DNA of 64,000 nucleotides from Pyrenula massariospora (taxonomy: Eukaryota; Ascomycota; Eurotiomycetes; Pyrenulales; Pyrenulaceae): assembly GCA_021030905.1 (NCBI GenBank), contig JAGFMI010000017.1, positions 496,001-560,000 on the forward strand, in the 5' to 3' direction. The position numbers and the translations under genes were made by a program. Under the pieces are notes generated by a model. That model saw only the letters and a list, made by a program, of their open reading frames with translations. It made no database searches and was not told where the DNA came from. Below are positions 36,161-58,749 of the stretch, piece by piece. Positions within the stretch are counted from its first letter, which is position 1, and each line of letters starts with the position of its first letter.

Positions 36161-38107
36161 ATGTCACGACAAACTTCTCCTGAGCAAAATGCGCAAGCCG
36201 CGACTACTGGCAGTCGCGTCTGGTTAAATGGTTGGAGACTCCATACCATGACTTGCGGGTACTCTTAAACAGCAGCACATGCTTCATGAAACTAAGTCGA
36301 ACAGAATTCTGCTGTCAATGACACTTGTCTACATCGAGGTATCGATCGTAGGCACTTCGATCGTGTCCATCGTTCATAGCCTGAACGGCTTCAGTCAATC
36401 GTCTTTCATCGTTGCAGCCTACTTGGCGTCGTTCAGCAGTACTGATCTCTGACAGACTCTACATAAGAAGTGCTAATGGCGAAAAGGTCTTCTCATCATC
36501 TGGTGCAAGATTAGCGATGTCTTCAGCAGAAAATCCGCAATGATGACTGCCCAGTTTATGTTCGCTGCATTTTCAGGAGGCTGCGGAGCTGCACAGACTA
36601 TGGTCCAGCTGTAAGTCAAAGCGTTGAATCTCTTCCGAGAAGGTCTGAATAGTCAAAGTATCTCATGCCGCGCTTTACAAGGCGTTGGAGCCGCTGGATG
36701 TCTTGCATTGGGAATGGTGATGCTGTATGAGATGGTGCCTCCGTCTAAATATCCACTTTATGGCGCGGCCGTCTCTGCAAGCGCCGCATTAGGAAGCTTA
36801 ACTGGACCATTAATCGGGGGAGGTGTTAGCCAGTATTCAACCTGGAGATGGGCATTTCTCATCAAGTATGTCTTTGTGACTGGAGCTCCATACGCAATCT
36901 AACAATGACACAGTGTTCCCACAGCTGCAGTTGCATTGTTGCTAATCTTCATATCAATGCCTGCTGCATTCCCCTATCTGAGCAGTTCACCAATGTCGCG
37001 ATCTCCAGTCAAGTCACGAAAGTTTGCCCAACTCGATCTGATGGGATCATTTCTTCTTATCCTTGGCACTTACACCTTGGTAACTGTGCTTCTGAATGCT
37101 GGCACATTGTTTAGATGGAGTAGTGCCACCAGTATTGTACTTCTGGTCATATCGGGACTCTCATGGATCGCTTTCCTTCTCGTAGAGCGTTATCTGACGA
37201 GTAACGACTGGAATATTCAGCCCATCTTTCCTTGGCGATTTCTTCTGAACAGAATTTGGATGGGGACACTTTTGTAAGTGAAACTAAATGAAAAGGCTTT
37301 AAAAGCTTGCTTCTAACAAGTAATAGAAGTTCCCTGATCTCCGGAGTGCCATATAGTGTCCTTGTGGTCATTCTACCACAAAGATTTCAGATCGCAAATG
37401 GCCTAAGCGCTTTGAACGCTGGCGTCAGACTAATTCCTTTCAATGCCTTTATATCATTTGGCTCTACAGCTGTAAGTATCATCACAGCAAAGACAAAGAC
37501 CTCACCACTCTACTTGATGATCGTTGGGTTTGTGCTACAGCTAGCGGGAATCGTTCCAATGGCCTATCTCTCAGAAGATAGACAGTTACCTACCTCGATA
37601 TACGGATTCCAAGTCCTCGCTGGGCTAGGAGTCGGCTGCATATTTGGTATAACGGTTTTGCTTCCGCCAGTGCTAGTTGAAATGCGAGACCTTTGTGAGT
37701 GTTTTCAAGGGATTCTTGATTTGTATGACTAACGAGATGTACAAGCTGTTGGAGCTGGCGCACTCGTCCAGTTTCGGGTCCTTGGAGGTGCTGTCGGGCT
37801 TGCGATCGCCTCGACCGTCTCTAATAACTACCTTACCTCAAACTTACGAGGCTTGATAGGATCAGGAAACCTATCACAATTTATCGAATCCTTTCAGCAC
37901 ACAAAGAAATTCTCGCCACTCCAACGAGCACAGATAGAGCGGGCATTTGCTCACTCTTTCAGTCTCCAAGCCAAGGTTTTGATAGGGTTTGCAGCTGTGC
38001 AGTTTGCGGTGATTGCTCTTCTTTGGCGCAGGCCTCAAATTTTACTCCTGAATCAAATAAAGCAGAGTAAGCCGGAAGGGAGTAAGGCTGAGAAACAAGA
38101 GGTATGA
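36161..38107 (+). CDS. MFS exporter, 14-helix drug:H+ antiporter (DHA2) type
   Basis: This is a plasma-membrane efflux pump of the kind that exports fungal metabolites. Seven exons (36161-36258, 36305-36438, 36487-36610, 36659-36865, 36914-37273, 37327-37694, 37746-38107) give 550 residues, the usual DHA2 size. The short first exon restores the family opening WLNGWRLHTMTCG-ILLSMTLVYIEVSIVGTSIVS. Other landmarks are LNGFSQSSFIVAAYL, LIIWCKISDVFSRKS, the motif C-like region CRALQGVGAAGCLALGMVMLYEMVPPSKYPLYG, STWRWAFLINVP and the closing block GAGALVQFRVLGGAVGLAIAST. In the first helix, the Asp usual in LDxTIVxT is Glu (YIEVSIVGT). As the first gene of the polyketide cluster it is the natural candidate for product export. 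Confidence 0.9.
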
Positions 38108-39431
38108 AACAAGCTTATGACGGAGCATAACAGCAATTGTCATTTACCGAGAACCAAAACATTTCTGCTTTTCCTCCTAGTGCATGGGATTTTAGATCTG
38201 CTTGCCTCTTTCGCATCATAAATGGTAGCATCGTAAAGGACGTTACAAGGGCTTGCAGCAAAGGCCATCCTGTCGTGATTGCTTTTCTAGGAAGCTATCC
38301 CCGAGGACCGGAATAGAGGGGCTTGACTATGACTGGCCAAGCTCTGTCGTGTAAATAAGGGTGCCGTGGATGCCTGCCGAAAGCCGAGCGTTGCCGAACA
38401 TGAAGTGATGATGCGATAATCTTTGCATGCGATGGAACGCGACCCTGGCATCCTTGAGAATTTTGGGGTGCAAGGACTTGTTGTCCATTTCAAATCTAAA
38501 TTGGGGGCTGAAAATTGCAAGGTAGCAGCGCCTGTTTTCTTCTCGGGCCTCTAGCCAATCAAGGAAGCACTGAGATCTACAGATGACCCAGAGTGTGAGA
38601 TAACGACGTCGGGGATCCGCCCCACCATAAAATCCCGGTCAGGGATGCAGCTTACGAAAAAGTGTGTCACAAGGATGTGTGCTACCAAGAATCCGCGTGA
38701 CAAGGATGCCCAACGTATATGCAAGCCATGGATAACGGCCTCGGCGAGATCAGCCCTTCTTCAGGCTATGTATCCCTGAAACGCCACACAATAGCTCCTC
38801 TCCACGTAGGTCACTAGTCCTGCAGGCGACCTAGCAAAATAGCAGCCGCACCGCACGGATCCTTTGACCGAGAAGTGAGTCTAACGCGTTGAAGCAAAAC
38901 TGAAACTTGAGATGACGATATGGGAGGATGAGTATGGATTGATGAGTACCAGTCATTCAAAATATCGACTTGCCATCATCGGCCATGAACAAACGGAATG
39001 GGCTAAGCGAGGCTAGGATCTTGGCTCAGGCACGGCTATGGACCGATTTCCAGCCCTATATTGGTCTGCACTATCAATACCAGGGCTCACATTTCGATGT
39101 TGCGCAGCCTTCACGGCTGAAGCTAGGGAATCATGTGAATGAAATCGAAAGAAGAAACGCGCCGCGCAAAACGCCAAACTTACATCGGAACAAGCCGAAA
39201 ACGCTAGTCAAAAGACGTATCTGTTTCAGGACTTGACGAACTTGATATCGAAAAGAATGACATTGACACATTGGTCTCTTTTCGTCGTAGCGACGTGATG
39301 TATTGTCAAAAGACATCACAAATATATATACGTAGGTTGTGTGCTTCTGTGACGGGCTATTTGGACAATTGTATCACGGCCAAGCTTTGCTTTGAATTCG
39401 AGACGAAAGGTGTTCAGTTAGTCTTCCAACA
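38108..39431. other. Intergenic region between exporter and first cluster P450
   Basis: No gene is visible. Frames near 38970-39320 are short and overlap on both strands. Confidence 0.4.
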
Positions 39432-41227
39432 ATGCTCTCATCAGCTGGCATAATCTCGACCTTCAAGGTCTTTGCTCTACTCTTTGTTACTTTGATATGC
39501 ATCAGAGTACGTAATCATCGTCCCTAGCGTTCTCCCTCAGTGTCGCTAAGATTATTCGTCAGACATTAGTCGTCGCAATATACCGATGGAAATTCCACCC
39601 ACTAGCAAAGTATCCAGGCCCATGGCTTGGAAAGATCACAGACCTGTACGGAGCTTATCATAGTGCCAGAGGGCAGGAGCATTTAGCCGTTCGCAAAGCT
39701 CACGAAAAATGGGGTAAGATATAGACCGGAGTCACATTCCTTCATCTCTGACGGCGAATGTAGGTCCATTTGTCCGCATAGGCCCCAACAGGCTCTCGAC
39801 ATCTCAAGCCAATGCAGTGCACGGTAGGTGATCAAACATCTGCTGCAATTGAACGTTCTCACACAATCAAGACATCTACACATCCAAAGACTTTCAAAAA
39901 TCAAAAGCGTACATGACAATGCAGCCAGCGCCCGGAGCATTCAACCTTCATACAGCCATCGACATGGGACTTCATCGACATAAACGCAAGATTGTTGGCC
40001 AAGCTTTCACCGAGAAGTCTGTGCGGGAGTTTGAGCCTACGATAGTGGGTATGGTCAATGTCTTTCTCAACGAGATCTCCAAGGCCACAAAAGCTTCGGG
40101 TAATGTAGACTCAGGTTGGTCTAATCCGCTTGATATGAACCTCATGTGCACTCGTCTTGCAGTGGATGTTATGGGCTGCCTTGGATTTGGTCGGTCTTTC
40201 GATCTGCAAACCAGTCCTGAAAATCAATTTATCATCCCTGCTATAAATGCCGCCAGCGTCATGGCAGGAGTCTATGCCCAGTATCCCCGGTTGAAAGAAT
40301 ATGGTCTTGGAGATTTTGTGAAGTTTACCGGCGGATGGACACGAGCTCGATTTGGAAAATTGGCGAAAAGTCTTATGGAAGCCAGAGTGAAAGAGGAAAA
40401 GGATTCCAAGAGAGATCTATTTTCGTTTCTAATCGATGCTCAAAATCCTGAAAATGGCCAAACCTTCACCTTGGATGAGCTCTGGGCCGAAAGTAGACTT
40501 GTTATGATAGCAGGTGAGCCACTTTCAAAGAGATAATCCAGATCGGAACGTATCTGACCTACTTCCAGGCTCTGACACAGTGTCTACTGCCATGGCAGCA
40601 ACCTTCTTCTATCTATCTCGGTACCCAGACTGCTACCAGAAGCTCGTGTCAATCATCCGAAGCTCCTATTCTTCTTTGGACGAGATCACGCGAGATAGTC
40701 TACGCTCCTGCGACTATCTACGCGCTTGTGTCGATGAGGCGATACGCATGTCGCCACCCGTACCGTCAATGTTGTGGCGGGAAGTCATCAACTCAGGAGC
40801 CACGGTGGACGGCACTTTCATTCCGCCCGGTATTGACATCGGCCTCTCGCTGTATATAATCAATCACAATGAGTCGGTGTTCCCGCAGTCGTTCACGTAC
40901 AATCCGGATCGTTGGGTGGAGAGCGATACGAATCCCATCGACCAGGTCGAATCCCAGCGAAGGGCTTTCCGTCCGTTCATCCTCGGTCCCCAGGAGTGTG
41001 TTGGAAAAACAATGGCGTACGCTGAGGTTTCGATTGCGATCGCGCGAGCGCTTTGGTGCTTCGACATACGTCGTCCGGAAGGGCCGATGGATGCTGTTGG
41101 AGCTGGGAGCCCTGACGGATTGGAGGGTAGGCAGAGGATCAATGAATTTCAGTTGTGGGAACACATCACGGCCAAAAATGAGGGACCGTGCCTAGAATTC
41201 CGTCGTCGACCTGGGGTAGCACTTTGA
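39432..41227 (+). CDS. Cytochrome P450, trichothecene C-15 hydroxylase-like (CYP65-type)
   Basis: This microsomal P450 has 528 residues in five exons: 39432-39506, 39563-39713, 39764-39823, 39872-40513 and 40569-41227. The first exon encodes a hydrophobic anchor, followed by YRWKFHPLAKYPGPWLGKITDLY. The I-helix oxygen-binding motif is AGSDTVSTAM, the K-helix is EAIR, and the haem loop is FILGPQECVGKTMAYAE with the axial Cys near residue 453. Similarity is to fungal isotrichodermin C-15-hydroxylase-like enzymes. It is a close paralog of the P450 at the other end of the cluster (55227-56949). The second and third exons have exactly the same lengths (151 and 60 bases) in both genes. It probably hydroxylates the polyketide product. 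Confidence 0.9.
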
Positions 41228-41759
41228 TATGTCTACTAGGAGGCTGGTGCATTGCCTTCATGGCTTGCGCAAGGGGTGCAGAAGTGGGCGTTGGATATCA
41301 AATTGAAACTTGTATGTGTATTGTTGTGATGGATAAGTCCCGTTGTATAATCTATATAGTTCAAACTCATAGGAGTCTTTTGATGGTTAGCAGTCAGTTC
41401 AGGTTGGCCTCGGCCAACAACTCCAACCATTTCAAAGTCAAAGTTTCAGTAAGCTAAATAATAGTCAACCATGTCCGTAACAACAGCAGCCCACGGTACC
41501 ACCCAGTATACAGTTAGGGGCTAGGTCATTCAGAGAAGTGACAATCCCTCTTGTTGAGTAATCCGAATCTTCGGATATGCAGCAATCAGCCTAGCCCTGC
41601 AGGACAATAGAAATGTACCCCTCACTTACTCCGCTGTAGATGTCGCCTTAGCGGGCCACCAGATAAGCAGATGTGCCGCGATCTTCCACCCAGATTTCTT
41701 ATATGAACAACAAAAAAGTCCGGCCCAAATGTTTTGTACAATTATCCAAAAACAAAATG
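41228..41759. other. Intergenic region
   Basis: No gene is seen between the P450 stop and the tRNA-like element. The TTTTGTTTTT tract just downstream of that element (minus strand) lies at its right end. Confidence 0.4.
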
Positions 41760-41892
41760 GGCTGAACGGCGATTTGAACGCCGGACCTCTTACAATTTGG
41801 AAAGAAACCCAAAGCTACGAAATAATTAGATGATATATAGACAAAGCTGAAAGGAAGATTGACCAAGAATTCTGCCACTGAACTATCCAGCC
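41760..41892 (-). tRNA. Putative tRNA or tRNA-like element with a long insertion
   Basis: On the minus strand GGCTGGA and TTCAGCC form a seven-pair acceptor stem. GTTC-AGTGGCA-GAAT forms a D arm, and CGGCG-TTCAAAT-CGCCG a perfect T arm. The A box (TAGTTCAGTGG) and B box (GTTCAAATC) fit, and a T-rich Pol III terminator follows. The anticodon arm is doubtful. TCTTG/TAAGA pair, but then base 26 is missing and about 60 bases lie in the loop. The apparent anticodon would be CAA, yet no long variable arm typical of tRNA-Leu is present. It may be a tRNA with an unusually long intron, a decaying copy, or a tRNA-derived element. Confidence 0.4.
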
Positions 41893-42414
41893 TGCAGGGA
41901 ACTGAGGCTTGCAATTTTCATTAATAACACTATCTATGATCCATATTCCACAGACTGACAATTAGAAGAGACCTGTGGGATTTCCATAGCACATAGTTGC
42001 CTCGCTCTTTTCCCGGCTTCGTCTTTCAGAGGGTTCTCGAATAAAGATTTCATAATAGTCTTCCTACTGCTTCTTGCATCCAAAAGCAGCAAGAATAGAC
42101 GAAAGATTCATTCTACGTCTTGCAGTCGCTTTAGCCCATACACATTCTCTTGGTAGAAGACGAGAAAGATTTTCTGTTCTCGTAGTCCTGCGAGTCCTTC
42201 ACCTCCACACACATCCTCTATGCCAGCAGATAAGACTCAAGGAGGGAAAATAGGGAGTGAGCGACCACAGCGCATTATACGACCCGAGAAGAGTCTACTG
42301 AATTTGCAAGAAAAGAAAGATTCCTTACTGTCATAAGTTAGATATAGAGTCTAAAATCCAAACCCCACCCTAACGCCGGCCTAAACACAAAATCCCTCTA
42401 TCAATCTCATCCAT
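41893..42414. other. Intergenic region downstream of the polyketide synthase
   Basis: No gene is seen. The right part is C/T-rich and would hold the 3' untranslated region of the minus-strand polyketide synthase gene. Confidence 0.4.
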
Positions 42415-45400
42415 TCATCCATCCGCCTCTTCCACCGCCGCCGCAACAGTCCCGCTCAGACTCGCCACCGAACTCCTCCCATCCAGCAACGTCAAGAACG
42501 GCACATCCACCGCGAAGCTCTGCCAGAACCATCCCCTCAACTCCGACGCGAGCATGCTGTCCATGCCGTACGCCGCCAGCGGCTTGCTCACATCCACCTG
42601 CGCAACGGGCAGCAGGACCAGGTTGCCGAACCGCTTGGCCACGTGGGCGAGGACAGCGTCGGACAGGCTCGCTCCGCTGTTGAGCGCCTCCGCCACCTCG
42701 GCCGGGAGGTTGCTGCTGTGCTGGTGCTTGATCGACTTGTCCGCGTTGTCGCCAACGTCGAGCGCGCCGGCAAGGACCTGTGCGCGCGGGTCGTTGAGGG
42801 TCGGGCTGGAGCCCTCGAAGCCCTTTTTGCGGAGCGCCTTGAGGCCGTGGGGTTCGAGGCCGGTGAGGACGTGGGCGTGCGCGAGGGCATCGTAGGCGTG
42901 AGGGATGGTCGGCTCACGGGCGGCGGAGAGCGAGATGTCGGTTATCTGGAGGAGCTCGTCTTCGGTGAGCGCCTGGATGCCCTTTCGAAGGAGCAGGGCT
43001 TCGATCTCCGGGTTGTCGTGGAGGTAGCCGACCTCGGAGATCATGCCGAAGCCGATTGAGGTTGCGGGGAGGCCTTGGGAGCGACGGTGTCGGGCGAAGA
43101 TGTCGAGGAAGTGGTTACCCGCGCAGTAGTTGGACTCTGTTGCTGTGCCGACGCTGCCGGAGACTGAACTGGTCATCAGGAAGAAATCGAGTTCGGAGTC
43201 CTTGCCTTTGATGGCGTTATGCAAGTTCCACGTTCCTTGGACTTTGGGGTCGATGCCGGTGTGCCACGCTTCGTTGCTCATGGTTGTGAAGAGCGCTTCC
43301 TATACAATTGTCAGATACCGTGGCGTGTGTAGAAGAGCACCAAGTTGAGAGTGACTTACATTCAAACCCATGGCAGCCTGAACGACACCACCAACCTTCC
43401 CATCAACTGCATCCACAGTCTTCTTCACATCTTCATAGCTGCAAACGTCACCGCGCACGACCTTACAGGTGCCGCCGCTATATTCGAGATCCTCAATAAG
43501 GCGGCGAGCAGGTGCCTTATCGGTGCCAGAGCGACCGAGAAAGACAAATTTCCGACCTCCGCGCGACATGATCCACTTTGACATGGAACGGCCAAGCCCA
43601 CCCAGACAACCGATCATCACGTACCACTTCTCGGAGCTGAATGTATTATCATATTTGAAGAGCTGGGTACGGATTTGCGATTCCGGGTTTCCCAAGCTGG
43701 TGGCGATCTTGCCCATGCGATTCTGCGAGGAGAAATGTCGTAGCGCTTGGGTCAACTGGGAAATGTCAAAGACTTCCAGAGGCTCGATCTTCGTAATCTT
43801 CTTCTCGCGATAGAGCTTCAGCACATCGGCGAGCAGACGAGACCACTGAGCGTGATGAGCGGGGTTGTCAGAGTTACAGAGGTCTGAGATGTCAAATGCG
43901 GTAAACGTGACGTTGTTCAGGAAATGCTCCATCGAGAGCTTGCCGCCGGTGCTCAAGTCAAGGTTCCCAATCTCGATGAAACGACCGTAAGAAGCGCAGC
44001 ATTTCCACGATGCGTGCAGCAAGTCACCGCTGAGCGAGTTGAGGACTACATCCACACCACGTCCCTTAGTTGCTTCCATGATGCCGGACAAGAACGACGT
44101 GTCGCGCGAAGTAAACACATTCTCCGGCTTAATGCCAAAGTTGTCCACAAGGTAAGCTTTCTTCGCATCATTGGATACGGCCGTGAAGATCTCAGCATTG
44201 GCAAGTTTAGCGATCTGGATAGCAGCAATACCTACATCACCCGCGCCGGAATGGATCAAGACAGACTCACCCGGCTGGATACGTGCACGGTCGTGGAGGC
44301 CATAGCTCGCAGTAGCAAAGACAAAGCCAAGGGTCGACATGGAATGGAAGTCTTCATCATCTCGAAGCTTAGCGACTGACCATTCAGGTACGATCTGAAG
44401 CGTCTGGAAGCTACAGGGCGCCATTACGACAACGCGATCGCCGGTGCCAACGGACGAAACTTCCGAGCCGACATTCTCCACGATCCCGGAGAATTCGAGA
44501 CAGCAGGTCGCGTTCTTTGTATCCAGCTTTCCAGTAAGAGCGTAGAAATCTTGGTCATTGAAACCGAAAGATTTGACATGGATGGAGACTTCTCTTGCGC
44601 CGAGGGAAGTTTTTGGCTCCAACTCCTCGAAGTACACGGTATCAAATTGCCCGGGGCTTTTCATTGCCAACTTCGCCGACCTGACATCCTTCAAAGCTAG
44701 ATCCTTGTATTCATTGCCCTGCTTGAGCCTGAAGGAAGAATTGAGCGAGTCATCGGGAACAAAACGGCTCACATGAGGCACACCGTTTTGCTGAACAAAT
44801 TCAAGGTCGGGAACGCCTCCCTTTTGGCGTAGCGTGGTAAGGATATTGTCAGCTGTGATATCGATTCTGGTTCGGATGTCGTCAACGTCGTAGACGATGA
44901 ACTTCAGCGAAGGTTGCTCCAGCATAAGCGCTCGGGCGGCTCCATTGACTAAGGAAAACTCAGGAGATTCTCCCTTAAGAAGATTACCATTAGTTACCCA
45001 AACGATTGTCGAAGCATTATCGGTCATGAGCTTAATGCCACGCACCTCGGCGTGAGTACTGGTCGCTAGAACAGGTCTTTGGCTCTCGATGAGCGAGAAG
45101 ACCGTTGTCCCTGTGGTGATATCGCCATCTTTTAGATCCTCGAGTGAAACTCGTGACACGGACTGACCCGGAATTTTGGAAAGTCTGGCCACGATGGTCT
45201 CGCTGAACTCGCTAGGACCAAGATCAACAACGACAGACCTGGAAGCTTTTACCGCCTTAGAGCTCTCTTCTTCAATTGCCCGGCTCAAAGAAATCCCGCC
45301 ACTCCTAGAGGTCAATTTGGACCACAGGGTCTCAAAGTTGGTTGATCGAAGGAATCGTTCCGGCTTTGATCCGGCCAGAGCCAACACTAACCCATGAGGC

Positions 45401-48400
45401 CCGAGACGGGCTTTGAGAGACTCGATGTGAGAGTCAAGATAAACATCAGTAGTAGAGTGAAAAGGCAGAAGAATGAGATCGAACTTCTTGTCTGCAAGGT
45501 CATCTGACTCTTTACGTTCGAAAGAAGAAAGATCCACAGAAGCGCCAGAGAGCTCTCCGATTTCGTTAAAAGCGCCGCATGTGTAGGAACTAAGTCTCTT
45601 AAAGTCGGTCTTCGCAAGGAGTAGATCAAGGGTCATCGCTAAGATCTCATTGATGTCATTACCAAGCTCCAGAATCCTGAGCGTAGGATTCTTATGGGTC
45701 AGAAGATCGAGAGAAGCAGCCATCTTCAGCAGCCCCTCGTCATTAATTTCGGAATGTGCTTCACTGACAGAGCCATTTAGGTATTCGGTAAACTTGTCTG
45801 AGTTCATCATTCCCAGGCCGAAAACATCAGGTTTCCACAAGACGTGAAGCATGGGATGTCTCCTATCCGCAACACCGACTTGAGTTGCGGCTTCATAAGG
45901 GGCAAGTTTCACATTCTCGAGTTTTGCATGTATTTCCCCATCCGCTCCGACCAGCTCAGCACCAATCTTTGCTGAGCCGAATCCAGTCCGTTCAGCAAAG
46001 GAATTAATGGTGGACGGCGATGGCCTCGTGAAATCCGGAGTCTTGATTATTCCCTTTGCAACGCGGGTAGGAACTTTACCGCGAAGGGCCTTTGTCACAC
46101 CGGCAGCGGTGGCAATGAGAGAGCTTTGTAACATGGCATCAATCGTGATTGGGTGGATAGCATAAATGGAAAACTCATCACCTTCTACTCGCTGAAGAGG
46201 TACATTGGTGCTGCAGTAGTGACTATTCTTCATACGGCTGACATGGAACTCTTCAATGGGGCGGAACTTCGCACCGTAATTGAGACCTTGCTTTCGAAAG
46301 TTCTCGTACCACACGCGAGGAGCAGTAGGCTCCAGGGTACCCTCAGGTGCTTTGAACTGAGATTCAATAGCTTTCGACTCCCCGGTTATCATACTAATTG
46401 AGCCGCTGGCGTGTTGAATAGATTGGCCATTCTGGAAGGATGCAATATTGAACTCCCACCAAGTCCCCGATGTGGAGGCGCAGGTGATTCGAGTGCGACG
46501 AATGGTGGTGAAGAGCTCAACCTGAGCAGATGCTTCTGTGGAGAGTACCAAAGCACTAAGGATGTTAACATTCTGAAGGTTGAATGTAGGTCGGTGATCC
46601 CATGAGGCATTGGATGCTTGGAGGACGGCCTCCATGGCCATGCTCATATAGCCGGCGCCTGGAAAAACTACGGTTTCTTCTAATTTGTGGTCCTGGAGCC
46701 AAGAAATGTCGTCAACTCTGATAATGTTGCGCCATATCAAGTCAATTTCATTACCTCCATTACATTTAGAACCGAGGAGTTCATGACGCCGGTATTTTCT
46801 GTTTTTAAATTCGATACTTGAGCGACACTCACTCCAAAGCATGGTATCATAGTGCCAGCTATAATTTGGCAAGTCAGTAAGAACCTTAAAGTGATTGGTC
46901 TGCCTCTTGCTGCTCGACTCCAATCCGTTCATCTTCTCAAAGGAAACTTCATGACCCGCGAGCCATAGACGTCCGGCCAGATGAAGGACAGATTCGCTTG
47001 CATTTTCAAAACGTTGGATTGCTGCGTCGTATAACATATCTTCCTCGGGTATGTTCAACTTCTTACGTATCTGTTTGATGGGAAGTTGCAATGCTGAATG
47101 AGGACCGAGCTCGATCAAGTGGAATTTTCCTTCTTTACTTAGTCGCCCAATTGCTTGTGCAAATAGGACAGGACTTTCCATGTTCGACCTCCAGTATGCT
47201 GGGCTCACTTCTGTGGTGATCTTATTTGTGACAGATGATACAAAGGTAGCCCTCTCTGTGACCTTAAAGGATGGGTCAAGAGCTGGAAGGACTTTTTCAA
47301 GAATTGCTTGATAGTCTTTACCTGGTGCCAGCATGTGATGAGAGTGGTATGCCTGACCTCCGGTGTTCAATTTTCGGGCAAAAACTCCTTTCTCCTGTTG
47401 CCGAGAGAAGAAAAAATCGATAGCACCTGCGTCACCAGATATCGTGACGCTCTCAGGAGAATTGACGCAAGCAATGCAAATCTTGCCCTTGAGGCCAGCT
47501 CGATCTATCTCTTTGTCCGCTTCTTCTTGTGAAAGGCCAGCGGCCATCATGCTACCGTCAGAATGATGTTTGGAAATAAGATAACCGCGGTAGTAGGCGA
47601 CGGTGATAGCCTCCGCTGCGGTGAGAAGCCCTGCGGCAAAGGCAGCGCCGATCTCACCCGATGAATGCCCAACTGAAGCTGACGGGAAGATATCCCATTC
47701 CGCGAGCAATCGGACGAGCGCGACTTGAATGGCCGTGCAAGTAGGTTGCGACCGCGTAGGGTGATGAATCTGGCTGGTTTCTTTATCTTTGAGAATCTCC
47801 TCGCGAAGAGTCCATACAGGAGGATGAGGCAAATCTTGAAGCACAGCATCCATTTCTGAGACCGCGTCCCGGAAAACGACGAACTCAGTGAATAGCTCCT
47901 TGCACATCTCTGGCCACTGCGAGCCTTGGCCGGTGAATACGTAAGCAAATGGCAACTCGCCGCTATCAGGTCCACCTGGGATCATCGAGAGCTTCTTGCT
48001 CGCGAGAACCTCTGCGATGTTGGCGTTGCGGTCCAAGATCATATATCCCCGCTCGCGCAGATGAGACCTGCGTGTTCCTAGGGTATAGGTGAGGTCGAAG
48101 AGGCTGGTATCATGGAAATCATAGGTGGAAAGATCCTTGACGCGGGCGTCGAGGGACTCCGAAGTAGCAGCGGAGAATGGTAGCACAAAGAACTTTGGGA
48201 GGCACTGGGCACGATCAATTTTGCTTGCTGCATCATAGTCTTGTGGAAGATGAACTTGAGCATCCTCGACGATGATGTGAGCATTTGCGCCTCCGTAACC
48301 AAAGGAGTTGATACTAGCACGCTTTACTGACCCATTGGTGGCGGGCCATGGCTCCAAATGAGTGGGGATATGTATGTTCCACTCGTCAATCTTCAGCTTA

Positions 48401-49752
48401 GGGTTGATTTGTTTCAAGCCAAATACCCCGGGGATTTGGCTCTTTTCGAGAGCTAAAGTCGTTTTAATAACGCTTGATATACCGCTTGCAGCTTCTGAAT
48501 GGCCGATGTTGGTCTTTACAGATCCAATGTATAACGGAGAACGTCGTGGGCGTTGGAAGACACGTGACACAGCCTCCACTTCAATGGCATCTCCAATCTG
48601 AGTACCCGTGCCATGACACTCCACAAAAGACGTCTCAGCTGGATCGAGTCCAGCTTTAGCGTATGCTTTGCGAATGACTGCTTCTTGTGCATCAGCGCTT
48701 GGAAGGGTAATGCCGTTTGTCCGTCCATTCGCGTTGACGGCAGAGGCTCGAATAACCGATCGAACTGGATCACCATCCCTAATAGCATCATTAAGTCTTT
48801 TCACGTAAAGAGCACTAATACCATCGGCTCGTCCGTAACCATCCGCGGAAGCGTCGAAGGTATGACATGTGGAGGTGGCTGAAAGCACGCCTGCTTTCAT
48901 AGTGCCGATATGCTGCTCCGGAGATTGAACCAGATTCGCACCTGTGACGATAGCAGCATCACACTCCCCAGCTTCAAGCGCAGCACAGGCCACGTGTAAG
49001 CAATACAATGAAGATGAGCAGGCTGTATCCAAAACAAGACTAGACATTGTTAGCAACAGCTAGCTTGTTGAAATTCGCTCGTCTACTCACCTAGGGCCTA
49101 TCAAGTTGAATATGTGACTGATTCTGTTTCCAAGAATCGTGGCCCCCATTCCGGTGGCGCTGTATCTACTCATGTACTCGGGGTCTTTCGTTTGCATGAC
49201 TTGGAAGTCAACGGTGAAGTTTCCGACATAGACGGCAGTATTTGAGCCGGATGCTTTTTCAAGAGATACACCGGCACTCTCGAAGGTTTCAAAGACCACT
49301 TCAAGCAGCTTTCGCTGCTGCGGGTCCATATAGGTTGCTTCGAGGTTGTTAATTCCAAAGAAGCTATTTTCGAAGCTTCGGATATCTTCGTCTTTGATAA
49401 AGTATCCTCCTCGAGTGTTCATGCTGCCTGGTCTTTCCATCCCATTCGGATGGTAGAAGCCGTCGAGATTGAATCTCGAGGCCGGGATCTCGCATTGTCC
49501 GGATCTTGTGTTGGCGAGTAGATCCCAGAACTTGGAGCTCGACGTGCTACCACCTGGTAATTTGCAACCTGTCATTTGATCAACCAACCCTTCCTCAATA
49601 CATATCATCTAATAAACCTTACCAATACCACATATCGCGATGGACGTGTTTCCAACTCCAGACACAGCTTTGCTGACTGGAGACTCTTCCCGTCGAGGGC
49701 TCGATGCCTCACTGCTTGCCTTCGGTGAATAGATTAATCTCTCCGCCGCCAT
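42415..49752 (-). CDS. Highly reducing iterative type I polyketide synthase
   Basis: This cytosolic multidomain enzyme builds a reduced polyketide from malonyl units. Four minus-strand exons (49752-49623, 49568-49091, 49039-43360, 43299-42415) give 2390 residues. KS: DTACSSSLY with the active Cys near residue 209, plus ECHGTGT and NIGHSEAASG. AT: FTGQGSQW and GHSSGE with Ser near 662. DH: His in DHKLEETVVFPG near 986 and Asp in TIDAMLQS near 1169. The usual Gly of HxxxGxxxxP is Glu. Near 1326 a methyltransferase remnant reads ILELGNDINEIL instead of ILEIGAGTGG, so it is probably inactive. ER: LIHSGAGDVGIAAIQ near 1803. KR: IGCLGGLGRS near 2016 with Ser and the YCAGN catalytic motif near 2154. 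ACP: GMDSM near 2342 carries the phosphopantetheine Ser. No release domain follows, so release must come from partner enzymes. It is transcribed away from the neighbouring SDR gene. Confidence 0.95.
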
Positions 49753-50669
49753 GCTGTTAGTCTTATACCTTGAGCAGCATTGGTTTCATGATATCGGGCA
49801 AAATGCACGATTGATGCCGATCAAGTATTGCTTGCGCTCACATGAATAGATCCAAGATTTATATCGTCAGTCTCTCTTCCATTGATAAAGGACTTACCCC
49901 CTTCCTTAGGACCAGCAACACAATGTCTTCAATGCGCTAATTCCTTCTGATATAACAATTAATTGTAACTGTTGCTGGCCGTGGAGGGTACAGCGAACCT
50001 TGTTATCATATTTCTATTATCTCGGCTCCTCTTATCTCGCCGATTTCTTGTATCATGTGAAATATAACACAGGAATATTGTGGTGCCAGATACATGCGGT
50101 CTAGTCTAACCTAGCCTAGCCAGTTCATCTACCTACTTTGGCCTACAACGGCATACCGACTTGCTGTCAGCTGCAGATGTCGATCCTAACATTGAGACGT
50201 ACTATGAAACAAATGGAGAACCACTGTACACCTCGATCAGTGAGGTAGAATCGCTTTGATCCACCCATGGAGGCTCGACCACTAGGGCTAAGGGGTAAAT
50301 CCAGCTTACGGGAAAGTCACGACTAGCGCCTTTGAGCTGACTTTTGGTAGAACATCCACTTTGCTGAGTGCCAAAAATTCCATCACCGTGGTCTACGATG
50401 TTAGCAAGGTATCACCGCGGTGCACAAAATCGGCTCATTCCTTGTACATCAGCAGAAGTAGAGTTGGTTTAGGTGACACCTCGCGCGTTTGTTCCAGAAC
50501 TCAGATCGAGCGGTGTGTAACCAGTACGGGCTGTGTGCGAATATTTGACAGATCCCACATTTGTCTTTGTCAGGGAATTCTCTTTGTTAGGAGTCTTTCT
50601 TTATCAAGGATTTCTCTTTGTTAGGGATTTTGTGTCAAGACTCAAATCTTTTCGCTACTCTTACAAGCC
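49753..50669. promoter_or_regulatory. Divergent promoter region, polyketide synthase / first SDR
   Basis: This 917-base gap separates divergent starts and must hold both promoters. It contains a perfect 10-base palindrome CACCGCGGTG at 50413-50422, which resembles a site for a symmetric Zn2Cys6 dimer. Two near-identical copies of TTCTCTTTGTTAG start near 50578 and 50612, shortly before the SDR start. These elements are seen directly; a regulatory role is inference. Confidence 0.45.
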
Positions 50670-51882
50670 ATGGCTGCACAAAAATTTGCGCTCGTCACTG
50701 GGTAGGTCTTGTCTCTACCTTTTTTCAGGATGGGCGTGACTCATTTTCACCAAGCTGCGGAAAGGGAGGAATTGGACATGCTCTTGCCCGAGAGCTCCAG
50801 TCTAAAGGCAGAAAACCTCTTTGGTTGACTTGACATGCAGCTTCTAATTAGAAAAGGTTACATAGTATTCGCGACTCTGCTTCCACATGAAGAGCGAGAT
50901 CACCTCACTGAGCAAGGTATCCATACGTATAGCTCAGATGTCACCGAGGACAAAGATACGGCGAGTTTGCAGGAGCAGATTGACGAGATATCAAACGGAA
51001 GACTTCATATGCTGGTGAACAATGCGTGCGTCTATCTTCCTTGCGGAAGCTACACATGACCAACATCTCACTTTCAGTGGAATGTGCTACACCATGACAG
51101 CAGCAGATACCCAAGTTCGAGAAGTTGAAAAGATGTTTGCTGTCAATGTCTTTGGACCGATGCGCATGGTACACTTCTTTCACAAGATGCTTGTGGCAGC
51201 AAAGGGAACCATCGTCAATATTGGTTCCATTGGTGGTGTTGTACCGTACCCATATGGTGGTACGGAATGCTTCATGATGTCAAAGTTGGCACTGACCTTG
51301 CAACCGCTTTCAGCAAGTTACAATGCCAGCAAAGCGGCCCTGGTCCATTATGGTAACACTCTTCGGGTCGAAATGGCGCCATTTGGGTCAGTGACTCTTC
51401 TTGCTTGACAATGGACGTCGTGGAAGATTGATTTCATCACATAGTGTGCGGGTTGTCAACATAATTTCCGGAGAGATCGGAACAAACTTTTTGAAAAGAG
51501 ACATTGCGAACAGCCGGAAGCTCCCCGATGACTCGCTGTATTCGAAACTTGGGGATGATTTCATTGCTCATGTTGCGAGAGTACCGGGTCAGCACATCTG
51601 AGGGAATGCTAAGTCCCATGCTTACATCGTGTTTAGCAACAACTAGTCCTGCACAATATGCATCTGCAGTAGTTGCAGAGATTACAAAGATATCCCCGAG
51701 CGCATGGTTTTGGTACGGCTCACAAACTTTCACCGTACGATGGTGCGATGCCTTGCTTCCCCGAACTTTCTGGGTATGTCTCCATTTCTGCTTGTTCCAT
51801 CGTTGCATTCAATCCATTGACCGAATGGTAGGATTGGTTGTTCACAAGAATGTTTGGTCTAGGAAGGTTGGCACAGCCGTGA
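50670..51882 (+). CDS. Short-chain dehydrogenase/reductase, Ayr1-like
   Basis: This 279-residue classical SDR is close to fungal NADPH-dependent acyl-dihydroxyacetone-phosphate reductase-like proteins. Eight small exons fit: 50670-50701, 50755-50807, 50857-51025, 51078-51259, 51314-51386, 51445-51587, 51637-51773 and 51832-51882. All phases agree. Motifs are the cofactor loop TGCGKGGIG, VNNAG, the catalytic Ser in IGSIGG and YNASK with Tyr and Lys. The C-terminal part ISPSAWFWYGSQTFTVRWCDALLPRTFW-DWLFTRMFG matches the family and fixes the last introns. The second intron appears to use a GC donor (50808). The fourth (51260-51313) is 54 bases long without a stop, so it could be retained in frame. 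SDRs of this kind are core members of fungal salicylaldehyde clusters, where they oxidise or reduce the polyketide chain before aromatisation. Confidence 0.85.
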
Positions 51883-52270
51883 ACATGGACAAAGAAGCGG
51901 CATAACATGTTTTTAGTGGCTGGCAGGGATCAACGTATTTGCAAACAGAATCCTCTCTCTCCTGCTGCAAGTTGTTTCATTGACGCATTCCTTGCTGAAC
52001 CGGGTCATACCGCACCAATCATTTGTAGCCAACATGACCCTTAATGTATACGTGAGAGACGGTTGGCCAGCGTGAGCGTTGCAGTTTGTGGGATCGGTAT
52101 TCTAACCATTAGTATTAAAAGCGTTGCTGTTCTTCATTGATCGATTGTCAATGACGGCTCGGATTGCATAAATAAAGCAATAGACCTCGATCTTGGAATC
52201 CAAAGTTCCAATGAGTGACACCTCTAGGTTGTGACACAAATCCTACATTAAGCCGTTGAAAACATCCAAC
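51883..52270. other. Intergenic region between the two SDR genes
   Basis: No gene is seen in these 388 bases. It would hold the terminator of the first SDR gene and the promoter of the second. Confidence 0.4.
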
Positions 52271-53335
52271 ATGGCCCTGCAGATTGATGGCTTCGCCCTT
52301 GTTACAGGAGCAGGTAACGATTCTCGTATCCAAAGCTTGCACAAGCAACTCAGAAGCGTTTAGGATCGGGCATCGGCCTTGACGTCGCTCTCGCCTATGC
52401 AGAAGAAGGTGCTGCAGGTGTAGCCTTTGCCGACTTGAATGTCGATGCAGCCGAAAAAGCCGCAGAGCAGAGCAAAACCCTTGCCAGGAACCAACTTTAC
52501 AAGGCTGTCGCACTGCATGTCGACGTAACGAACCCAGAGAGCGTCGATGCTATGGTAAAGGCTACGATCAAAGCATTCGGCCGGATCGACTACAGTGTGA
52601 ACAGCGCCGGGGTAAGGCTTGTGCTACCTGAAATCTCAGTCGTACGGTGCATCATGTCAACTGACCGCCTTTCTCACTTCTAGATCGGTGTCCAGGCTCC
52701 TCAAGAGGTGGCACACGCGTCTCTGACAGAGTTTGACCGATTCTACACGGTCCACGTGCGTGGCACGCTGCTCTGCGTTCAAGCAGTGACCAAGGCCATG
52801 AAGCTGCAGAGTGAGAGGAGTGTTCCTGCTGCGGCTCGGTCTTCGACGATACAGGGATCTTCGAGCCCGGCGAGCAGAGATATAGGCCGCGGTGTCATTA
52901 TCAATGTGGGCTCAGCTAGCTCATACGTGGTTACGCCGCATATCGTGCAGTACACGGCGAGCAAGCATGCAATGCTCGGCCTTACACGTAATGCCGGTGA
53001 GTGAAAAAAAATGAAACTAAAGATGACGTCAACGAAGATAACGCCGGTTGCAATGTTCGCTAATGACTTTTTTGATAGCGTTGGACAATGCCCCATATAA
53101 AATTCGCGTCAGTGCTGTTTGTCCCTCCTGGGTTGAAACACCGATGGTTGACGCCGCGGCGGCCGGTAGTCCCGACCTCGGGGAAATGATGTCTCGCGCT
53201 ATCCCTTTGGGTCGTATTGCTAAACCTGAGGAGGTTTCCGATGTTGTCTTGTTCATGAGCAGTCCTAGAGCCAGCTATGTCACAGGAGCTGGATGGCTGG
53301 TGGACGGAGGAACGACCCTGCAGGTGCGAATCTGA
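52271..53335 (+). CDS. Short-chain dehydrogenase/reductase, classical type
   Basis: This is a 286-residue SDR in four exons: 52271-52313, 52364-52611, 52684-52996 and 53079-53335. The cofactor loop is TGAGSGIG across the first splice site. Acidic residues in VAFADLNVDAAEKAA suggest NAD preference. NSAG, the Ser of NVGSASSYV and YTASK complete the catalytic set. The C-terminus RIAKPEEVSDVVLFMSSPRASYVTGAGWLVDGG is the standard SDR ending. An insertion rich in Ser, Ala and Arg (SERSVPAAARSSTIQGSS, near residues 165-190) lies before the catalytic Ser strand and is longer than in most relatives. It lies between the first SDR and the cupin on the same strand. Together with the polyketide synthase these form the likely biosynthetic core. 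Confidence 0.9.
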
Positions 53336-53527
53336 TTCGATAATGAATATTAGCTCTCTGGCCGAGTCAAAGTCTATTATCCGGTTGCAAACAAAGCAGA
53401 TAGACCATGTGAAAGGCAGGTTCGGTTTCCTCTTGCTTAATAAAGTCCTCTGAAGTACCGGCCTTACTTACAAAATCATAAGCATTTGGACTCCTTTGTA
53501 TTCACCTACTGCTTTTAGATCTCAAAC

Positions 53528-54185
53528 ATGAGCCCCGACGCAAAGGTTTCCGGGCCTATCACCCGTTTTCCGGCCGATGATCTGCGGCCAATCACTCGTT
53601 ACATCACGTCTCACAATAAGGAAGCCAAGGGTGTCTTTGTCAAGGAGGATGATGGCGACCACCACCGTGTTATGGTGGAGGGAGCGGGCGTTACCAATAT
53701 TGTGTACAGTACCGATAGTAACCCAGTTGACTTGAACGGCGACAAAGACATTGAGTGGGCCAAGAAAAATGAGGTCAGTTCCCAGTTCTTCTTATTCCAA
53801 TTTTTTCGGATTCTCTATGTGCTAATAGCGCTCGCCATAGCCTGGTGTTCATGTTCCCAACGGCTCCGTCGTACGACTCATCGACTTCGCTCCAGGAGTA
53901 GAGTCACCCTGGCACCGTCCCATGTCGATCAACTACGGCGTCGTCATTGAAGGAATACTTGAGATCACGCTTGACAGTGGCGAGAAGCGCATTCTGCATC
54001 CAGGCGACGTTTGCGTCAACCGCGGTGCAAACCATAAGTGTCGCAATGTATTGGCTGGAAAAAGTAGCCGTGCGCTCTGGATTCTGCTGGATGTCAAGCC
54101 ACTCTATGTTGGTGGGAAGGTGTTAAGCGAAGACTTGGGAGATTTGGCCAAGGAGTACGCGGGATGTGGCCATGCAACAGCATAA
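53528..54185 (+). CDS. Cupin-domain protein of the polyketide cluster
   Basis: This is a 196-residue single-domain cupin in two exons (53528-53773 and 53841-54185; donor GTCAGT). The beta-barrel core spans [61 protein letters not shown]. Of the usual metal ligands in G(X)5HXH(X)3,4E(X)6G, one His (in SPWHRP) and the Glu of VVIEG are visible. The second barrel motif has GANHKCRN with one His. Related small cupins are found with HR-PKS and SDR genes in salicylaldehyde clusters, where they are needed for the aromatic product and may assist cyclisation or dehydration. That role is inferred from context. The start follows closely after the second SDR gene on the same strand. Confidence 0.88.
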
Positions 54186-55226
54186 ATAGGAGATTCATGT
54201 ACGCGACTGATAAATTACATCAAAAGTTCATACTTGAAGGCCTGTGACTAGAGCCATGTCGTCAGAAGTACCGTACCTCTGTGGCTATCAAGTAGTAACC
54301 TTATCATCTCTATATCGCCAACCCGACAGGGTATTACTTAAATTTTGAAGTTTCTATAGCCTGCGGAGTGGAAATTGGCTGAGCGAATGCAAATGGTGTG
54401 TACGATGGATGTTGTAGTGGACGAAGTCGAAAATGATGGGAAACATGCCAAGCCATCACGTGACAAAGGCTCATGCACCGCTAGGACTCTACGGGTGGGT
54501 GAATGACAGATATCGTAGGCCCCGCTTCGGGCCGCTTAGGTCGATTTTTAGCCGGTATGGGGGCCATGATTTCTGTCACCCAGCCTCTTGTTCTGGTCAG
54601 GGAATTGTTGACGTCCATTAAAACCCGCTGTAATTACAAACACGATCTTCCGAGACATGATTGTAACTATGTAAATTGACATGAAAATGCTGATAATTTC
54701 ACAAATGAGTCAATAAAGGGTATATCATATAAATGTAAGTCCTGAAAAACATCTACAAAATACTATTTCACCAAATAGTTTTAGGCATATGACATAATAG
54801 AGTAGGCAGAAGATGCCAGCGACCCTGCAACAGCTCACCCACCCAGGGTGTAGGTCCAAACGGTCGCGTGTCAGTTACGGCGGCGCGTACCTTTGGCCCA
54901 GAGGGAATGATTTCGACGAAATGAGGAGTCAGGCCAGCCACCAAATAGTAAATGCTACGCTACATTTGTCGGTGCATATCGACCCCAAAGCAGGGTCAAT
55001 CATGCAGAGATTGTGCGACATCCATGCAGGTAGGGTATCGCCGATCTTCCCGTTTCATTTATGAATCCAGCCTGATTACTATCGGTGGCTGTGTTTATCG
55101 TTTATCAACTGTTCCACCCCCACTCTGTGACAGCATATCTCAGATCCTCTACCAAATTGCGAACTTTCAAGATTTCGTTCCTAAGATATACACGATACTC
55201 TACACTATTGATTGTGAGAAGGTGTC
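54186..55226. other. Intergenic region between cupin and second cluster P450
   Basis: No gene is supported. A 1-kb gap here is long for the cluster. It has an AT-rich centre (54640-54790) and short frames only. Confidence 0.4.
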
Positions 55227-56949
55227 ATGGAAAGCGCGCTACAGATACTATGGCTTGTATGCCAAGTGGGCCTCGGCTATATTTTGTGCAGGGTAAAGAA
55301 CATGCCGTCGTCCTCTGCACCATCAAGCTGATAGTCTCATCCTAGGCCCTGGCAGTATCTGTTTACCGCTTCAAGTTCCATCCGCTTGCCAAATACCCAG
55401 GACCGTGGCCTGCGAAGGTGACCGACCTCTATGTAGCTTATTATAGTGTCTTGGGCCAAACCCACGTTCATATTCACCAAGCTCACAAGAAATATGGTAC
55501 AACTCACTCGTTACACACTTAGAGAAAGTACCTACTCTGTTTACAGGTCCCGTCGTCCGACTTGGTCCAAACAAGCTGTCATTCAACTCCGCAGCTGCAA
55601 TGCACGGTAAGCGGATCAGTCCTCGATAAGCTCCCATCTTATTGAGGTCGACCTCAGAGCTCTATCCATCGAAGCATGTTCAAAAGTCGAAAGGCTACGT
55701 TGCAATGGCTATCGACCCACACAATTTGAACACGCATACAAGCATCGATAAGGCCATACATCGTCGCAAACGGAGGTTGGTCAGCCAAGCTTTCTCAGAG
55801 CAGGCTCTAAGGAACTTTGAACCGATCATGATCGAACAGATCAATGTATTCATAAAGGGATTACTCGATGCTGTAGGACAGGCCAAAGACTCTTCCGAAA
55901 AGCGTGATGGGGGTTGGTCATCTCCCGTCGACCTCGGCACGCGCTTCAAGTATCTGACGCTTGACGTCCTTGGGGAATTTGGGTTTGGTCAATCTCTCAA
56001 TGTACAGACATCTCCTAAAAACAGATTCTTCATCGACGCAGTCGACGCCGCGAGCTGGCGCTGTGGAATCTACGCCCAGTACGCGAAACTCCGTCAGTAC
56101 GGCTTCGACATGATCGTCCTGCCCCTGCAGATGTCCCTCTGGAAGCGCTTCATCGGACTAAACCAGGAGCTCGTAACCACCCGCCTCCAGGACTCAAACG
56201 AAAAGCACGACCTATTCTCCTTCATCATCGACGCCAAGGACCCCGAGACCGGCCAAGGCACATCCCCCGAGGAGCTCTTCTCCGAGAGCGCCCTGTTCGT
56301 CATCGCCGGCACAGACACCACCGCCACCGCCCTCTCCGCCACGCTCTTCTACCTCGCCCGCCACCCCACACGCTACGCCAGACTCGTCTCCTCCATCCGC
56401 ACCGCTTTCGCGCGCCTCTCCGACATCAGAACCGGCCCCGACCTCACCAACCAGCCCTACCTCCGCGCCTGCATCGACGAGGCGATGCGCATGTCTCCGC
56501 CCGTCGGCGCCGCGCTGTGGCGCGAAGTCGCCACCCCCGAAGGCGCCTCCATCGATGGAGTCTTTGTGCCGCCCGGGACCGACGTCGGGGCTTCGATCTA
56601 CACCGTGCACCACGATGGATCTGTGTTCACGGACCCGTTTACTTATAACCCAGAGCGCTGGATGGAGGACGGCCACACGAAGCAGCAGTTTGAGCTGATG
56701 AAGGCGGCGTTCCAGCCGTTTTCGGTCGGACCGCGGAGCTGCGTGGCCAAGAACATGGCGTACCTGGAGCTGTCGATCACGGTTGCGAAGCTGCTGTGGT
56801 GCTTTGACGTGAGGGTCTCTGGCGCATCGGCAAGGCAAGAGCCTGAAGGTCATGAGGAGCAGTTCCAGTTGAAGGAGCACTTGACGGCAAAGTATGAAGG
56901 ACCATGGCTGGAGCTCAGATGTCGGCCTGGCGTAGAGACGGAGTTATAA
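55227..56949 (+). CDS. Cytochrome P450, CYP65-type, paralog of the P450 at 39.4 kb
   Basis: This 522-residue P450 has exons 55227-55292, 55346-55496, 55547-55606 and 55658-56949. The first exon encodes a membrane anchor (ALQILWLVCQVGLGYILC), then VYRFKFHPLAKYPGPWPAKVTDLY. The I-helix motif is AGTDTTATAL, the K-helix EAMR, and the haem loop FSVGPRSCVAKNMAY with the Cys near residue 454. The Gly usually two after that Cys is Ala here (CVA rather than CVG), a conservative change known in active P450s. Compared with its paralog, the intron inside the AGxDT motif is missing. Codons from about 56090 on are strongly G/C-ending, unlike the first half and unlike the paralog. It marks the right end of the cluster and is a likely tailoring oxidase. 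Confidence 0.9.
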
Positions 56950-58085
56950 TCACCCATTAAAGGCAAAGCTCTTGCAACAACATTCTGAATTCCGAAACTA
57001 CAGAGCTTTTGTTTGGAAACCTGTGGGAAATGTCGATTGTCAAGCTAGATGTCTGTAGCAGCGAGTCGTTATGTATTCATTTACGCGCCAGGCCACCTCC
57101 TGCGTTCCTCCGGCGCGCACGTGGCTTATGCTGATCATTGACATAAGAAACCAATAACCTTTCCCTACGATCGGGCTCGTACAGCCCGAGCACTTCCCTA
57201 GTTTCAATCCCGCTTTTACACTGCATTCTATTACAATCACCTTCCACTTCGCTCAACCATCCTACCTCCCGAGCCTAACACCAACATTACACGTAAACAA
57301 GGCTGAAAAGGTCCGCAGCCACTATCCCAATCACCACCTCCCCCATCCCATCCCACACCGTCCACCTTAGTATCCCTTCAACCCACCCCACTCATCCATT
57401 ACCCTCCTCTCTCTTCCCAGCCCCCCCTCCCCCGGCCCGCAGCCTTTATCCCAATCACCACCTCCTGCCCACCACCCCACACCGTCCACCTTAGCATCCC
57501 TTCAACCCACCAATCCAATACCCTCTGCTCTCTTCCTCTCATCTCCCTTACCCCCTTCCGCTCCCGCCGCTCAAACCCTCCAAGCAAACTTCTCCACCTA
57601 CCCACCCACCCCGCCATCCCTCTCAAACCCCCTCTCCCTTTCTCCATAACTCCTCCCCGCCTCTGTCACTAAAGCCTCCCCCAACTTTGCCCTACCCCCA
57701 TCTCTCGCCCGCGCTCAGCGTGGACTGTTTACTCTGCACTTACCTTCCTGCCCACGCCCTCATGTCCTCATTCCAACCTCCCATCCCTTCACACCAGAGT
57801 CTTAAAAGTGTGGTCGATCAACGGGCCAGAAGTACCTTACTCAGACACGCCGTGGAAATAGTAGCTACTGCGAGTAGTCACGGTGCATGTCTGTGTAAGC
57901 TTTTGAAGTTGTCTAGTTAGTTAGTTCGACAAGATTGCGCGCGCCGCAGAACGGAAAATCCCCGCCCCGCCCCCTTCTAGTTGACTTCTCCTCACCGTTC
58001 ATTCGTGACCATTTCAATCTGCGAGAAATCCCTTCCCGGCGGGAGGGAGGAATCTTCTTCATGGGATAAAAATTCAGCGCACGTA
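56950..58085. other. C-rich gene-free region
   Basis: Sequence from 57290 to 57720 is extremely C-rich on the plus strand and holds a tandem duplication, annotated separately. No gene is seen. Confidence 0.45.
57315..57540 (+). repeat. Two-copy direct repeat of about 100 bases
   Basis: The segment starting GCAGCC at 57315 recurs at 57439. Both copies share ATCCCAATCACCACCTCC, CACACCGTCCACCTTAG and ATCCCTTCAACCCACC, followed by similar C/T-rich tails. The period is about 124 bases. The copies differ by several substitutions and small indels. Confidence 0.7.
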
Positions 58086-58749
58086 TCACAGACGTTCCTC
58101 CTCCTCCCCCTCTCCACTCTCTCCCGCGACACCTTCTCCTTCGAGTCCCTCTCCCTCTACCTCCCCCGGATCCTCTTGGCCCCCGTCCCCATCATTATCC
58201 CCCTCCATCTCAGCCTCAACATCCTCCTCCTTCATCTCCTCTTCAATACCCTCGCCCACCTCTCTGTCCCATCCAAACCCCCTTCCCCCCTCCCCCTCTC
58301 CACTCCCACCAATAGACTCCCACTCATCCTCTTCCTCCCCTTCCTCCCCCTCTCCACCAGCCCCCCTACCCGCCTCCCGCATCCACCACCCCCCCTCAAA
58401 ACCTCCCCCCTCAACCCCCTAAAAGCCCCCTAAATCCCCAACCCCCGTCCTCATCTCCACAACCCTCTCCGCCACCTCCACCCAAAACACCCGATGCCGC
58501 CGGATCTGCGCGACCTCCGCGCACAGCCTCTGCCGGTCGCAGGAGAAGTGGAGGCGGGGCACGTGTGGTAGAAGGCGAGGCAGGCAGCTCGAGGGGTCGA
58601 GGTTGCGAGAGTATGTGCTGGGTGACTTCGAGAGGGAATTGGGTGAGGAGGCTGTTGGTTGGGGGGGGGATGGACGGAGGGACTGGGTGGTACGCCGTCG
58701 CTGGGTGGAGGATAAGGTTCTGGTTCTGGTTCTGGTGTTGGTTTGCCAT
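58086..58749 (-). pseudogene. Probable F-box protein relic
   Basis: From the ATG at 58749 the minus strand reads a Gln/Asn/Pro-rich leader, then LLTQFPLEVTQHILSQ, a good F-box opening. The F-box continues only after a one-base shift near 58601: LDPSSCLPRLLPHVPRLHF, then SCDRQRLCAEVAQIRRHRVFWVEVAERVVEMR. In that frame a TAG stop occurs at 58421-58419. Beyond it a long acidic Glu/Gly stretch runs to 58086. F-box proteins normally link substrates to SCF ubiquitin ligases, but this copy looks broken by one extra base and one stop. The high G content could also hide sequencing errors, and the acidic tail may be only compositional. Confidence 0.45.

Follow-up and report, generated by a model that had tools for sequence, protein, structure and literature searches.

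Here, we report that seven adjacent genes in a 64,000-nucleotide stretch of the Pyrenula massariospora genome (the window; C8:496001-560000, where C8 is contig JAGFMI010000017.1 in a genome of 37,828,131 bases and 33 contigs) probably form a biosynthetic cluster of the fungal alkyl-salicylaldehyde kind, working through the reactions proposed below. The genes lie at 36161-56949 of the window and encode a major facilitator superfamily (MFS) transporter, a cytochrome P450 (P450a), a highly reducing polyketide synthase (HR-PKS), two short-chain dehydrogenases/reductases (SDR1 and SDR2), a cupin and a second P450 (P450b); all seven frames are open after hand-splicing, with no stop or frameshift in any of the models. 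At least 493 alkyl-salicylaldehyde clusters are known, and in Aspergillus nidulans rusA-D together with the regulator rusH yield the scaffold (PMC11915489). The compounds include pyriculol, sordarial and flavoglaucin-type molecules and are made by an unusual route, in which an HR-PKS and a cupin lead to an aromatic ring. The kind itself is well known; what is new here is the cupin and the tailoring set, which mark the cluster as a variant. An earlier, sequence-only reading of this DNA had named the same genes as a salicylaldehyde-type cluster, with the PKS divergent from SDR1, SDR1-SDR2-cupin in tandem, two paralogous flanking P450s and an MFS exporter. Every gene that it named is present and open, the Pfam make-up agrees and the layout stands; P450a and P450b are 50% identical, and the transporter has a full-length MFS_1 match, its export role being a prediction. 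The assignment to the salicylaldehyde type is likewise supported, by the KR clade, the PKS motifs, the StrC-like cupin and the co-occurrence of PKS and cupin genes, each described below.

The HR-PKS (42415-49752, minus strand; 4 exons, 2390 amino acids) is organized as KS-AT-DH-(degenerate MT)-ER-KR-ACP; Pfam matches cover KS, AT, DH, ER, KR and ACP, with nothing C-terminal of the ACP, and no release domain was found. The catalytic motifs of KS, AT, DH, KR and ACP are present and agree with those of SrdA-type PKSs. The MT region is degenerate (ILELGND), as it is in relatives, and therefore an unmethylated chain is predicted. A relative search scored 7991 candidates and gave 5331 relatives at E <= 1e-50, the best 120 of which are the listed PKS relatives considered here. 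Among these the closest is a metagenome protein (P0121, 79% identity), followed by one from a Circinaria assembly (62%); a Cladobotryum record with the source name srdA (P0153) is 53% identical and a Neurospora crassa record (P0219) 49%. Lichen-derived assemblies are among the nearest listed kin of both the PKS and the P450s. We built a tree of KR domains, where the sequence-only reading had proposed one of KS domains, from 56 rows (the window, 38 of the 120 listed relatives and 17 KRs of the same genome) by a quick method with support from the Shimodaira-Hasegawa-like approximate likelihood ratio test (SH-aLRT) only. A branch with support of 100 joins the window KR and 39 others and parts off the 16 other own-genome KRs; on the window's side stand P0219, P0153, Penicillium roqueforti, two Stachybotrys chartarum sequences and a second copy from the same genome on contig C14. 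An HR-PKS without a release domain is thereby placed in a clade with P0219, which we take to be SrdA, and hence among characterised members. The KR motif GTATE[S/A/G/C]NYC occurs in 105 of the 120 listed relatives and in both the window PKS and its C14 paralogue; of the 16 other own-genome KRs examined, the 12 that could be read all lack it. The title of a 2023 paper on the alkyl-salicylaldehyde class in the Journal of the American Chemical Society reportedly names the KR as the releasing domain, which would make the shared KR motif a fitting marker. The ER nucleotide motif of the window PKS reads GAGDVG in place of GAGGVG; this was considered as a lesion and rejected, Asp being found there in 6 of the 120 listed relatives. 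In one listed record, P0123 of Bombardia bombarda, the PKS is continuous with CTP synthase domains, probably through a gene-calling fusion.

SDR1 (50670-51882, plus strand; 8 exons, 278 amino acids), SDR2 (52271-53335, plus; 4 exons, 286 amino acids) and the cupin (53528-54185, plus; 2 exons, 196 amino acids, Cupin_2) follow one another beside the PKS, and both SDRs are adh_short proteins matching PF00106/PF13561. The same core is present a second time in the genome (L044-L047, C14:477,668-489,179), where pieces of PKS, SDR1, SDR2 and cupin are arranged and oriented as in the window, individual pieces being 39-75% identical. The C14 cupin is a remnant, in which 18 N-terminal residues run, out of frame, into about 65 C-terminal ones, some 110 being lost between; we do not claim that the C14 PKS is broken, since on visual inspection its frame breaks resemble introns, and the remnant call concerns the cupin only. 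No match to the window P450s was found in the 40 kb read around the C14 copy. Linkage of the core extends to other fungi: 29 of the 120 listed PKS relatives are matched by a listed cupin relative whose contig is equal in size, with species names agreeing in all 29 by eye, and this count is a lower bound given that 120 of 212 cupin and 120 of 5331 PKS matches were listed (119 of the listed cupins have a contig). In six of these pairs gene-order tags are 3 to 6 apart, e.g., 000155/000159 in Circinaria and 01620/01625 in Stachybotrys.

The best matches of the cupin are StrC, from the str cluster of Stachybotrys, and its family; StrC is the closest protein in the PDB (8x0v/8x0u), with 50% identity and a superposition at 1.2 Å, in line with the salicylaldehyde type proposed in the sequence-only reading. 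A possible kinship with the PatJ/AtD cupins of patulin and terreic acid or with the ManC-type epoxidase AtyE (PMC12356543) was weighed through these best matches only. Its fold is predicted with high confidence (predicted local distance difference test, pLDDT, 92.7). Across the 121 rows of the alignment His107 and Arg108 are invariant, and the window cupin also keeps His147 and Asn151.

A number of observations weigh against the assignment, and we gather them here. The naming of the PKS clade depends on taking P0219 as SrdA from a record name that reads 'Highly reducing polyketide s...', and the placement of the SDRs rests on their family and on the C14 copy, which repeats their order, rather than on a tree with SrdC and SrdE. 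One intron of the models, at 50808-50856 in SDR1, is GC-AG and all others are GT-AG; its donor reads GCAGAA, in contrast to the GT at the corresponding intron of the C14 copy, and its retention would end the frame early. The sequence-only reading had not noted this donor. In the haem motif of P450a (FILGPQECVG), Gln replaces an Arg found in 115 of 118 aligned relatives. With 150 of 212 candidates scored, no cluster transcription factor was found, the sole C8 member of the 142 Zn_clus matches lying at 740 kb, and no 9-mer is shared by at least three of the six upstream regions. The word GTCAGGGA, present upstream of P450a, SDR1 and P450b, was rejected as evidence of co-regulation, as 7 of 100 shuffles reach its window count of 5. 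The cupin, finally, departs at 6 of 63 conserved columns (each kept in at least 85% of the best 120 of 212 cupin relatives), where its 45 nearest relatives depart at 0-3; among the matches listed, six or more departures occur in 15 of 104 full-length relatives, all ranked P0049 or lower. Position 113 is Asn, where the 120 listed relatives have 114 Asp, 6 Gly and no Asn (D113N); position 149 is Cys, where 110 of 112 have Trp (W149C); and position 109 is Pro in place of Ala (A109P).

The two near-invariant sites fall in the family motifs: the aromatising cupins of the StrC type carry SIDYG and HxW (HKW in StrC itself), whereas the window cupin has SINYG and HKC, and our claim is therefore lowered to the statement that it likely works like StrC. 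From the cupin pattern HxH(X)3E(X)6G, presumably matched at residues 107, 109, 113 and 120 as motif-1 positions, Asp113 would be the acidic position of motif 1 and Ala109 the place of its second His; the pocket placement of 113 and 149 follows from this sequence pattern and an assumed strand parity. Both Asp and Trp are kept in two P. roqueforti cupins of different types (P0039 and P0053), which we take to be RusC and AnuC because P. roqueforti is reported to carry two clusters of this kind. The Gly113 cupins (P0049, P0056, P0077, P0085, P0086 and P0087) are a distinct type with GIGTVCEG replacing DYGxVxEG; P0086 and P0087 are each accompanied, in the same species, by a second cupin on a contig of equal size, and the subtype is perhaps an accessory cupin of two-cupin clusters.

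These changes could mean that the function of the cupin has altered and that the aldehyde is closed otherwise, into a partly reduced ring, a pyran or an open chain, before the P450s act. By the HxH(X)3E pattern, all three substitutions would be at barrel-lining positions. The cupin has also diverged fast: in a 64-row tree its end branch measures 0.58 changes per column (median 0.13) and is exceeded only by that of P0049, of the Gly113 type, and its mean cupin/PKS distance ratio is 0.80, compared with 0.60 +/- 0.05 (z 3.7) for 23 other clusters in the main cupin clade. However, over all 28 pairs five clusters outside the main cupin clade exceed the window in this ratio, and the retained His107, Arg108, His147 and Asn151 and the confidently predicted fold speak against a changed function, which we regard as unlikely. 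The bolder version, in which a repurposed cupin with Asn, Cys and Pro109 would make a different and perhaps non-aromatic ring and the duplicated P450s would replace the work of the flavin oxidase, is in our view doubtful; if true, the salicylaldehyde machinery would have a new branch here, with most of the cupin already gone from the genome's other copy of the core. On balance, an aromatic product is likely but, given the departures of the cupin at the two near-invariant sites, not assured. A natural cupin changed at the acid and the Trp in an otherwise open core offers a ready test of both residues in non-canonical aromatisation: if it still aromatises, neither would be needed, and if not, the cluster would lead to a new product class.

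The same departures might instead be read as early decay, i.e., a cluster out of use that gathers missense and splice changes, with the C14 copy further along after losing most of its cupin. The SDR1 donor, the haem Arg of P450a and the cupin substitutions would fit such a course, as would the PKS, where 12 of 428 conserved columns are altered, compared with 0-11 in the 45 relatives nearest to it. On the other hand, 12 or more such changes are found in 19 of all 120 listed PKS relatives, the PKS active-site motifs are intact and none of the seven genes has a stop or frameshift. The window PKS differs from the nearest PKS at 441 positions with no stop, where the neutral expectation at 0.045 stops per amino-acid change, worked out for the PKS alone, is about 20, or about 10 on the window's own half, and this stop-free divergence argues for selection on the PKS. 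We consider decay very unlikely. The Ala for Gly in the haem motif of P450b was also examined as a lesion and rejected, being common to 5 of 118 aligned relatives, all of them within the 22 best listed.

The core is flanked by the MFS gene (36161-38107, plus strand; 7 exons, 550 amino acids; MFS_1 at 3.6e-30, 105.5 bits against a cut-off of 33.4) and P450a (39432-41227, plus; 5 exons, 528 amino acids; PF00067 at 3.1e-54) on one side and P450b (55227-56949, plus; 4 exons, 522 amino acids; PF00067 at 1.2e-59) on the other. It could be argued that these three are mere neighbours outside the pathway, given the lack of a shared promoter word above chance; in addition, of the 120 listed P450 relatives, the best 25 include no member on a contig equal in size to that of a listed PKS or cupin relative. 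The best-scoring named relatives of P450a and P450b come from one Pyrenula assembly (62% and 69% identity; tags 005642 and 005640, two apart, on contigs of equal size), for which no PKS contig of that size is among the 120 listed. The pair is likely older than the present genome, because both orthologues are near each other there. Against a chance neighbourhood, the P450s and the MFS gene border the core on either side at a distance of about 1 kb, and the px cluster of the same kind also has P450 and MFS genes (PMC11161606). A role outside the pathway thus appears quite unlikely, and we keep the three genes in the salicylaldehyde-type cluster.

Several tailoring genes of related clusters were not found in the cluster at the level of Pfam matches, in searches that read frames without introns and that a badly split gene could escape. 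The flavin oxidases FogF, SrdI, VirF and AnuG of the fog, srd, vir and anu clusters turn the alcohol into the aldehyde again or form a lactone (PMC11375781). None of 42 genome matches to their family, PF01565, is on C8 (43 of 43 candidates scored), nor is any of 20 matches to PF01494 (19 of 109 candidates scored). PF00743 has 28 genome matches; three pieces on C8, at around 98 kb and 1,020 kb, are among them and are far from the cluster, which is at 532-553 kb. DMATS-type prenyltransferases (PF11991) have two genome matches, on C28 and C22 and not on C8; UbiA-type ones were not searched for. The absence of an FAD oxidase and a prenyltransferase noted in the sequence-only reading is thus borne out at this level, the latter for DMATS only.

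From the observed gene content, domain order, open frames, PKS and cupin kinship and cupin substitutions, we propose a route in which every reaction step is deduced from kinship. The HR-PKS would make an unmethylated reduced chain; its KR domain, together with the two dehydrogenases, would set this chain free in aldehyde form and oxidise one of its hydroxyls, and ring closure and aromatisation would likely fall to the StrC-like cupin. Hydroxylation or further oxidation of the side chain or the ring would likely be the part of the two P450s, and the MFS protein likely exports the product. Because no flavin oxidase was found in the cluster, the product may stay at the aldehyde or alcohol level set by the core and host reductases. 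The predicted product is an alkyl or alkenyl salicylaldehyde or salicyl alcohol with oxygens added by the P450s. The aromatising step may be slower, changed or shared with host enzymes, because the cupin has lost the acidic residue and the tryptophan kept by its relatives.

Among known systems, the window resembles rus (roquesalins, P. roqueforti), whose essential core is likewise an HR-PKS, two SDRs and a cupin and whose P450 oxidises the side chain (PMC11915489). However, the two flavin monooxygenases and the transcription factor of rus were not found in the window, which has two P450s to the single one of rus and an altered cupin. Oxidation of the side chain or ring by P450s is described for rus, anu and fog (PMC11915489; PMC11375781). 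With srd (sordarial, N. crassa) the window shares the PKS clade of P0219, taken as SrdA, and the KR motif; unlike the window, srd has the BBE-like oxidase SrdI and is reported to be without the side-chain P450 of the annullatin cluster (PMC11375781), and the ER nucleotide motif is degenerate in P0219 and not in the window PKS. The fog (flavoglaucin) and vir (trichoxide) clusters, compared through published descriptions (PMC11161606; PMC11375781), have the same kind of core together with a P450, whereas FogF/VirF-type oxidases and a DMATS-type prenyltransferase were not found on C8.

The promoter region shared by the PKS and SDR1 holds a 17-bp tandem repeat of 4.2 copies (50559-50630) just upstream of SDR1. 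Ahead of the MFS gene, 27254-34392 encodes an alpha/beta hydrolase, a fatty acid desaturase (30838-31854, minus strand) and a fungal rhodopsin-domain protein. Just past P450b, 57000-59000 shows a strong C-over-G skew of about -0.3.

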